From NCBI GenBank assembly GCA_003223455.1, contig QHVE01000034.1, forward strand, positions 521 to 64,520: a stretch of DNA of 64,000 nucleotides, given 5' to 3'. Below the pieces are notes generated by a model. It was not told the DNA's origin and did no database searches. It was given only the letters and a program-made list of their open reading frames with translations. Source of the stretch: Gemmatimonadota bacterium. Lineage in GTDB: Bacteria; Gemmatimonadota; Gemmatimonadetes; Gemmatimonadales; Gemmatimonadaceae. This document shows, in pieces, positions 1,479 to 6,433 of this stretch. Every line of letters starts with the position of its first letter. Position 1 is the first letter of the stretch. A program made the translations under genes and the position numbers.

Positions 1479-4274
1479 ATGACCTCACTCGATTCGTTCG
1501 GCAGCCGCGCGGCGCTCGACGTCGCGGGCACATCGTACACGATCTACAGGCTCGACGCGCTCAGTGCGTCGTCCGGCGGGAACAGCGACCGACTCCCGTT
1601 CAGCCTCAAGATCCTCCTCGAGAACCTGCTCCGAAACGAGGACGGCGCGTTCGTGAAGCGCGTCGACGTGGAGACGATGGCCAACTGGGACGTGCGCGCG
1701 AAGAGGGAGAAGGAGATCGCCTTCCGCACCGCCCGAGTGCTGCTGCAGGACTTCACCGGCGTCCCCGCCGTCGTCGATCTCGCCGCGATGCGCGACGCGC
1801 TCTCCAGTCTCGGCGGCGACCCACAGCGCATCAACCCGCTGCAGCCCGTCGACCTCGTGATCGACCACTCCGTGCAGGTCGACGAGTACGGCACCGACGC
1901 CGCGTTCCTCATCAACACCGATCTCGAGTTCGAGCGCAACGTCGAGCGCTACGTGTTCCTCCGCTGGGGCCAGGACGCGTTCAAGAACTTCCGCGTCGTC
2001 CCGCCCGGCACGGGCATCTGCCACCAGGTCAATCTCGAGTACCTCGGCAAGACGGTGTTCGTGAATGCGGAGACCGGCGAGGCATACTGCGACTCGCTCG
2101 TCGGCACCGACTCGCACACCACGATGATCAACGGTCTGGGCGTGCTCGGTTGGGGCGTGGGTGGCATCGAGGCCGAGGCGGCGATGCTCGGCCAGCCCGT
2201 GTCGATGCTCATCCCCGAGGTCGTCGGGTTCAAGCTCTACGGAAAGCTCCCGCCCGGCGCGACGGCGACCGACCTCGTGCTCACCGTGACCGAGATGCTG
2301 CGCAAGAAGAAGGTCGTCGGGAAGTTCGTCGAGTTTTATGGGAGCGGGCTCAGTAGCCTGAGCCTCGCTGATCGCGCGACGATCGCCAACATGGCCCCCG
2401 AGTACGGCGCGACGATGGGCTTCTTCCCCGTCGATGCGGAGACGCTCAAGTACCTCCGCCTGTCCGGGCGCAGCGAGCAGCACGTCGCGCTCGTCGAGGC
2501 CTACACGAAGGCGCAGGGACTCTTCCGCACCGACGAGACGCCGGACCCGGTCTTCACCGACACGCTGGAGCTCGACCTCGCGTCGGTCGAGCCGAGCCTC
2601 GCCGGCCCGCGCCGTCCGCAGGACCGCGTACCGCTCAAGCTCGCGAAGCAGATGTATCAGGACGCGCTGAAGACCGACCTCGAGAAAGCAGGTACGCTCG
2701 CCGGCGCGGCGGTGGAGAAGAAGGCCACGGCAGTGAGCGCGTCGCCGGAGCTCGCCAAGTCGCTCATGGTCGCCGACACCGAGGGGGCTGGCCAGCCGCA
2801 GCACGAGCACGGCGGCGTGAAGTGCACCTACAAGGGCCAGTCGTTCACCCTGCGCCACGGCGCCGTGGTCATCGCGGCGATCACGAGCTGTACCAACACC
2901 TCGAACCCCGGCGTCATGCTCGCCGCCGGCCTGTTGGCGCGCAACGCGGTGCGAAAGGGCCTCACCGTGAAGCCGTGGGTGAAGACGTCGCTCGCGCCGG
3001 GATCGAAGGTCGTCACCGACTACTTCGAGGCGGCCGGCGTGACACCGTTCCTCGACAAGCTCGGCTTCAACCTCGTCGGCTACGGCTGCACCACGTGCAT
3101 CGGCAACTCCGGCCCCCTCCCCGACGAGATCGCGTCCGCGATCGAGGAGGGAAAGCTGTTCGTCGCCAGCGTGCTTTCCGGCAACCGGAACTTCGAGGGG
3201 CGCGTCAATCCGCTCACACGTTACAACTACCTGGCTTCGCCCCCGCTCGTCGTCGCGTACGCGCTCGCCGGCCGCATGGACCTCGACCTCTCCCGCGAGC
3301 CGATCGGCATCGGCAGCGACGGTCCCGTCTTCCTGCGCGACATCTGGCCGTCGCCCAGCGAGGTGCACGACGAGATCATGCGCAGCGTGAAGAAGGAGTT
3401 CTTCACGCGCCAGTACGCCGATGTCTTCAAGGGCGACGAGCACTGGCAGCATCTCCACGTCCCCGGAGGCGAGACCTACGCGTGGCAGGATGACTCGACC
3501 TACGTGAAGAACCCGCCGTACTTCGAGGGGATGACGATGCAGCCGCCCGGCGTGAAGGCGATCGCCGGCGCGAAGGCGCTCGCCATGCTCGGCGACTCCA
3601 TCACCACCGATCACATCTCCCCTGCCGGCAACATCCCGGCGGCGAGTCCCGCCGGGAAGTGGCTCATCGAGCACGGCGTGCAGCGCAAGGACTTCAACTC
3701 GTACGGCGCGCGGCGCGGCAATCACGAGGTGATGATGCGCGGCACGTTCGCGAACATCCGGCTGCGCAACGAGATGGTGCCCGGCACCGAAGGCGGATGG
3801 ACGACGACCGAGCCCGGTGGCGCGCCGGTGTTCATCTACGACGCGGCGATGGAGTATCAGAATCGCGGAACGCCGCTCGTCATCGTCGCCGGCAAGGAGT
3901 ACGGCACTGGCTCCTCGCGCGACTGGGCGGCCAAGGGCACCGTGCTGCTGGGCGTGCGCGCCGTGATCGCCGAGAGCTTCGAGCGCATCCATCGCTCGAA
4001 CCTCGTCGGGATGGGCGTCCTCCCGCTCGAGTTCACGAACGGCGAGACGCGCCAGTCGCTCGGCCTCACCGGCTTCGAGACCTTCGACATCGACGGCCTT
4101 GCCGACACCCTCGCCCCACGCTCGACCCTCACCGTCCACGCGACTGCGCCCGACGGGAGGAAGAGGTCTTTCGCGGTGGTCTGCCGGATCGACACGCCGG
4201 AAGAGCTGAACTACTACAAGCACGGAGGGATCCTTCCCTACGTTCTCAGATCCCTTGCGCGAAAGGCTTCGTAA
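1479..4274 (+). CDS. acnA: Aconitate hydratase A
   Basis: A 931-residue monomeric aconitase of the AcnA/IRP type, interconverting citrate and isocitrate in the TCA cycle. The 4Fe-4S ligands are visible as C471 ([12 protein letters not shown]) and C537/C540 ([12 protein letters not shown]). Other signatures are [33 protein letters not shown] and the substrate-binding [10 protein letters not shown] in the C-terminal swivel domain. The open frame continues far upstream, but family sequence starts at ATG 1479 ([17 protein letters not shown]). Length is normal for AcnA. It is monocistronic, with the DUF1003 gene convergent downstream. The leader carries GTACCGAGTAC repeats that could bear on its regulation. 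Confidence 0.97.
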
Positions 4275-5825: not shown

Positions 5826-5857
5826 GGCGCCGCATCGAATCCCCTGGAGACGAGATC

Positions 5858-6433
5858 ATGATCACCCCCGCTAAAACTCGTGTCGCGGTCGCGGCCTTGC
5901 TGATGGTGGCGGCCTCGGCGGCCCGTGCTCAGCAGCCCGCGGCGGCCGGCACTCCTCCACCGGAGGTGGGCTCGCTCGCCCCCGACTTCGCCCTTCCCGG
6001 CGCCACGCGCTACGGCGTGCTCCGTGACTCGGTTCACCTGTCCGACTTCCGCGGCAAGACGGTCGTGCTCGCCTTCTTCTACAAGGCACGGACCAAGGGC
6101 TGAACGGTTCAAATGGAGGCGTACCGTGATCAGTACGCCAAGCTCTTCAACAGTGGCCGCAACGTCGTCGTCCTCGCCGTGAGCGTGGACCCGGACACCG
6201 CCCTCGCGTCGTGGGCACGCGACCTTCAAACACCCGTGCTGTTCGCCAGCGACGTCGGACAGAACGTTGGACGCCGCTATGGTTCGATTCGTGGTGGTGT
6301 CGACAGCCGCAATCTCTTCGTGATCGATCCCGCTGGCCGGATCGCGAAGAGCATGACGCCCTTCAACGAGCTCGCCCAGACGTCGTACGAGCAGCTCGAG
6401 GCCGCCGTGAAGAAGACGCTCCCGACGAACTGA
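5858..6433 (+). CDS. Secreted peroxiredoxin with in-frame TGA (probable selenocysteine 82)
   Basis: Reading through TGA at 6101-6103 gives a 191-residue AhpC/TSA (BCP-like) peroxiredoxin with signal peptide MITPAKTRVAVAALLMVAAS and an Ala-x-Ala cleavage site. The motif around the TGA is FFYKARTKG-U-TVQMEAYRD. In relatives the peroxidatic cysteine of the FYP...TPGC signature sits exactly at this TGA. The frame continues without a shift into YRDQYAKLF, VVVLAVSVDPDTALASWA and NLFVIDPAGRI. No cysteine occurs anywhere else, so the protein would have no redox residue unless TGA encodes Sec. A hairpin at 6118-6139 could be the SECIS. GGAGA precedes the ATG. The glycerate kinase gene starts 8 nt after the stop. 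Selenocysteine genes (selA, selB, selC, selD) are not in this window. The alternative is a nonsense mutation. Confidence 0.85.
6118..6139 (+). promoter_or_regulatory. Candidate bacterial SECIS hairpin
   Basis: A 7-bp perfect stem (GGCGTAC / GTACGCC) closes an 8-nt loop, CGTGATCA, within the peroxiredoxin reading frame. The loop begins 21 nt after the TGA. From memory, the bacterial SECIS model wants a short stem-loop with a G among the first two loop bases and a loop roughly 16-37 nt from the UGA; this one fits. A competing weaker stem (ACGGT 6104-6108 / ACCGT 6123-6127) also exists. Confidence 0.55.

Follow-up and report, generated by a model that had tools for sequence, protein, structure and literature searches.

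A frame in the 64,000-nucleotide stretch of Gemmatimonadota DNA analysed here by computation (the window) would encode a peroxiredoxin were it not for an internal TGA codon, and the question it raises is whether this codon breaks an ordinary peroxiredoxin gene or specifies selenocysteine (Sec) as the catalytic residue. This frame lies at 5858-6433; there is no cysteine among its 191 residues, and the TGA at 6101-6103 (residue 82) is its sole internal stop. The features to which we refer are the following.

5846..5849, + strand: Shine-Dalgarno-like GGAG, 8 nt 5' of the ATG, read directly.
5858..6433, + strand: gene for a very probable Sec-peroxiredoxin, with Sec at residue 82 and a stop TGA at 6431-6433, from the frame, Pfam, relatives and the predicted fold.
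5858..5929, + strand: probable signal peptide, residues 1-24 (MITPAKTRVAVAALLMVAASAARA), from the sequence and a similar leader in relatives.
6092..6094, + strand: Thr79, the Thr of the TxxU/TxxC motif, nearly invariant, from alignment to solved peroxiredoxins.
6101..6103, + strand: TGA read as selenocysteine 82 at the peroxidatic position, from TGA/Cys alternation among relatives.
6118..6139, + strand: putative SECIS-type hairpin GGCGTAC-CGTGATCA-GTACGCC with a 7-bp stem, from folding and comparative evidence.
6308..6310, + strand: Arg151, candidate catalytic Arg of peroxiredoxins, invariant in 33 aligned relatives, with a role presumed from the family.

With the TGA read as a residue, the product matches the Pfam AhpC-TSA family (PF00578) with an E-value of 9.9e-25 and a score of 87 bits against a cut-off of 26, and the match runs from residue 37 to residue 164, across the TGA, so that neither half of the frame would suffice for the domain. 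The TGA aligns with the peroxidatic cysteine of solved peroxiredoxins, and both the peroxidatic TxxC/U motif and the conserved arginine are present (Thr79, Sec82 and Arg151); the proline of the PxxxTxxC motif is replaced by tyrosine or phenylalanine in most members of the family. The predicted structure has a peroxiredoxin fold with a mean pLDDT of 87.6, the leader (residues 4-29) being of low confidence, and the top PDB fold matches of the model are peroxiredoxins. Judged by sequence, members of the family begin with a hydrophobic stretch that closes in an AxA-Q type end, as exported proteins typically do, and we suggest that the window protein is probably exported, with a predicted leader cleavage after ARA.

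What an earlier note had proposed for this locus from the letters alone is supported by these observations. Its coordinates and its description of a frame continuous through 6101-6103 are correct, the TGA is at the peroxidatic position as it had claimed, and the protein indeed lacks any cysteine; its description of the product as signal-peptide-bearing is supported by the hydrophobic leader with AxA-type cleavage sites, again as judged by sequence. Standard annotation would end such genes at the TGA or begin them at the downstream ATG at 6113, and an enzyme that is widespread in a common phylum would thereby be overlooked or wrongly divided.

Relatives were collected by scanning 84,980 species, each represented by one genome, and the 80 best were kept; essentially all are Gemmatimonadota by title, with a few having other or uninformative titles. 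Alignment of homologues, which the earlier note had recommended, reveals Cys/TGA alternation at exactly codon 82, with TGA in 77 of the 80 and TGC in three, and with no further stop in the aligned part. Additional copies recovered by whole-genome search have TGA or TGC/TGT only, genomes with a stop-free match having TGC or TGT, and no residue other than Sec or Cys, let alone a variety of them, was found at this codon in the relatives examined. Such pure Sec/Cys alternation is the pattern of a selenoprotein and excludes a lone mutation. One record, titled Euryarchaeota archaeon RS442 (L082), has a copy almost identical to two Gemmatimonadota copies (L076 and L079) and is probably mislabelled or misbinned.

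The alternation extends to the rest of the cysteine content. Sec copies are without cysteine in the mature part in 94 of 95 instances, and Cys copies have exactly one, so that the family is of a 1-Sec or 1-Cys type, and the proposal of a 1-Sec enzyme holds family-wide. The window's genome also encodes a Cys paralogue, with about 40% identity.

The window's genome is a 4.96 Mb draft in 127 contigs that is 96% complete, and a search of it for selA, selB, selD and tRNA-Sec, as had also been proposed, found all four, so that the selenocysteine machinery is present rather than absent. The selB gene is on contig C80, selA is on contig C112, and a tRNA-Sec with the anticodon TCA is on contig C16 beside selD. 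The selD gene (C16:8400-10300) itself has an in-frame TGA (...RCAG-U-AAKLGP), and selenophosphate synthetase, its predicted product, is probably a selenoprotein too. A further match to selA was rejected as a second enzyme, as what matches is a 625-bp stretch repeated exactly within a phosphatase gene. The stretch is internal to selA and recurs in frame in the next gene, coding for a HAD-type (GmhB-like) phosphatase whose middle it apparently replaces (positions 1519-2143 and 3089-3713 within C112:22500-29500; L134); it reflects a gene conversion in the recent past or else an error of assembly.

Across 298 Gemmatimonadota genomes, and among the matches listed, selA is found in 125 of the 132 genomes with a TGA copy and in one of the 11 with only a Cys copy (Fisher p 2.9e-10, a value that ignores shared ancestry and includes some incomplete assemblies). 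The seven TGA-copy genomes without selA are probably accounted for by incompleteness. One genome (G006, L115) has kept selA and yet has the Cys form of the peroxiredoxin, so that losing the Sec machinery does not account for the Sec/Cys exchange there.

Bacterial SECIS elements are hairpins located just 3' of the UGA, with a G among the first loop bases. The hairpin at 6118-6139 fits this form, as it lies just downstream of the UGA, with a gap of 21 nt between the UGA and an 8-nt loop (6125-6132) that starts C-G, placing a G at its second base. Hairpin energy was rejected as stand-alone evidence, the folding z-score being only -1.33; moreover, in this GC-rich window a downstream fold of -9 kcal/mol or stronger is predicted for 163 read-through TGA frames. 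The stability of the hairpin alone therefore proves nothing, and it is the comparative evidence that carries the claim. A search of Rfam around the gene gave nothing relevant, and a weak Rfam tRNA-Sec match near the gene (16.1 bits versus 47) was dismissed as chance.

Across 89 distinct Sec sequences, hairpin codons 88-93 have third-position entropies of 0 to 0.16, compared with 0.32 to 1.83 for 41 other conserved codons, all of which are above the six hairpin codons (Mann-Whitney p 4.7e-5). In the Cys copies, third-position variation is seen at most hairpin codons among copies that retain the residue. Six or seven of the seven stem pairs are retained in all 89 Sec copies, compared with mostly four or five in the Cys copies (two of 19 hold six), and the mean hairpin energies are -10.7 and -4.8 kcal/mol, respectively. 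Five of the seven pairs are invariant, and the outermost pair switches in a compensatory manner between G-C, U-A and C-G, with a mismatch in 14 of 36 sequences; the covariation score was reached by none of 500 shuffles, which do not keep relatedness. These comparisons support the assignment of 6118-6139 as a putative SECIS-type element.

How the TGA could be present without encoding Sec can now be considered. That an ordinary Cys peroxiredoxin gene has suffered a nonsense mutation, or was misread in sequencing, is a general possibility in any draft genome of 127 contigs, but it would have to be reconciled with the same TGA in 77 other genome records, and in more from the whole-genome search, and with coding conservation on both sides of the codon; we regard it as vanishingly improbable, in agreement with the earlier note, which had thought a nonsense mutation unlikely and had seen no other decay in the gene. 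A pseudogene was likewise rejected, since the TGA is conserved and goes with selA, and the hairpin is kept in TGA copies. Only slightly less improbable is that the TGA is read through otherwise than as Sec, for example by general recoding to Trp or Cys. The frame would be open under any recoding of TGA; however, TGA also terminates this same gene (6431-6433), the sole replacement residue in relatives is Cys, and TGA copies go with selA, with the hairpin being kept only where the codon is TGA. Setting aside the electron donor, we consider it very probable that 5858-6433 is a Sec-peroxiredoxin gene, and we infer that Sec is inserted, and that the protein is exported and active as a peroxidase. 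In this Sec-peroxiredoxin, the UGA at 6101-6103 would be decoded by SelB and Sec-tRNA-Sec together with the hairpin at 6118-6139, the protein would be exported across the membrane, and the selenol of Sec82 would attack peroxides to give a selenenic acid.

Since the peroxiredoxin has no resolving Cys, its re-reduction must come from a partner. Among 73 relatives with at least 2 kb of downstream sequence, 39 have, tail-to-tail with the gene, a gene for an exported TlpA/ResA-like WCxxC protein with, next to it, one for a CcdA-type membrane protein (Pfam DsbD_TM); the adjacent ccdA-tlpA pair is convergent with the peroxiredoxin gene and does not form one operon with it. An envelope relay, ScsB-TlpA-PprX, is known in Caulobacter (Cho et al. 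2012, as summarised in PMC5403849), and in view of this and of the lack of a resolving residue we propose a CcdA to TlpA to Sec-Prx pathway. The oxidised Sec enzyme would be re-reduced by a periplasmic TlpA/ResA-like WCxxC thioredoxin, the most likely partner, which would be held reduced by the CcdA (DsbD_TM) membrane electron carrier. The adjacency of the genes makes it reasonably likely that CcdA-TlpA is the donor. Reduction by something else, be it a low-molecular-weight thiol, some other envelope thioredoxin or a Dsb-type carrier of another kind, is an alternative at the donor step only and is possible but less probable. It draws some weight from 28 of the 73 loci, the window's type among them, where no ccdA-tlpA stands alongside and a C-N hydrolase, usually together with an agmatine deiminase, is encoded instead. 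Against it are the 39 loci in which tlpA and ccdA adjoin the gene, the presence of an unlinked ccdA-tlpA pair on contig C6 of the window's genome, and the same logic in the ScsB-TlpA-PprX envelope pathway, insofar as it is outlined in PMC5403849. The ccdA-tlpA association offers a testable answer as to how, outside the cytoplasm, a peroxiredoxin that has no resolving residue could be returned to its reduced state.

Sec peroxiredoxins with a TxxU motif are known, as in the Eubacterium acidaminophilum enzyme and the 'Prx' of the ocean metagenome selenoproteome (PMC2398784; PMC13188914). Like these, the window protein belongs to the AhpC/TSA family (PF00578) and would have Sec in its TxxU peroxidatic motif; unlike them it has a probable signal peptide and no Cys, and it scores below the NCBIfam PrxU (NF040737) cut-off (52 versus 270 bits). 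The BCP/PrxQ-type peroxiredoxins (PDB 3hjp, 2ywn and 4g2e) are its best sequence matches, and among its best fold matches, of solved structures, with identities below 30% in structural alignments, but the window protein differs from them in having Sec and a leader and in being free of Cys. As described in PMC5403849, Caulobacter PprX is a non-cytoplasmic peroxiredoxin that receives its electrons from a TlpA-type thioredoxin and a DsbD-superfamily carrier, an arrangement like the one we propose for the window protein. Judged against that description, the window protein is distinguished by Sec in place of Cys, and the Gemmatimonadota carrier is CcdA-like with a single DsbD_TM domain, unlike ScsB; the functional link between peroxiredoxin, TlpA and carrier in Gemmatimonadota is proposed from gene adjacency. 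Neither the 2016 survey nor the 2026 review mentions Gemmatimonadota in its main text, and a search of the open-access literature found no paper apparently describing a Gemmatimonadota Sec-peroxiredoxin family. An exported, resolving-Cys-free Sec peroxiredoxin that is widespread in one phylum and has a putative CcdA-TlpA donor is likely to be new.

The history of Sec/Cys exchange was followed on a quick tree of 110 copies in which the catalytic residue was blanked and branch support was by SH-aLRT only. Seven changes between Sec and Cys map onto it, of which at least five are forced by starred branches; the outgroup is long-branched and the direction of the changes is therefore not proven. Taken together, we lean slightly towards a reading in which a selenium-dependent defence against peroxides in the cell envelope is widespread among the Gemmatimonadota. 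It would consist of an exported peroxiredoxin with Sec as its only catalytic group, supplied with electrons through CcdA and a thioredoxin of the periplasm, and the natural exchanges between Sec and Cys, of which there are at least five, would largely track the presence of the Sec machinery. The family offers Sec and Cys forms of a single exported enzyme for ready comparison, some genomes having the two in tandem, and this may show what Sec gives to a peroxiredoxin of the 1-Cys type. The tandem Cys- and Sec-peroxiredoxin genes are found in one genus, in genomes G063, G082, G057, G168 and G258 (L114, L126, L127, L128 and L129).
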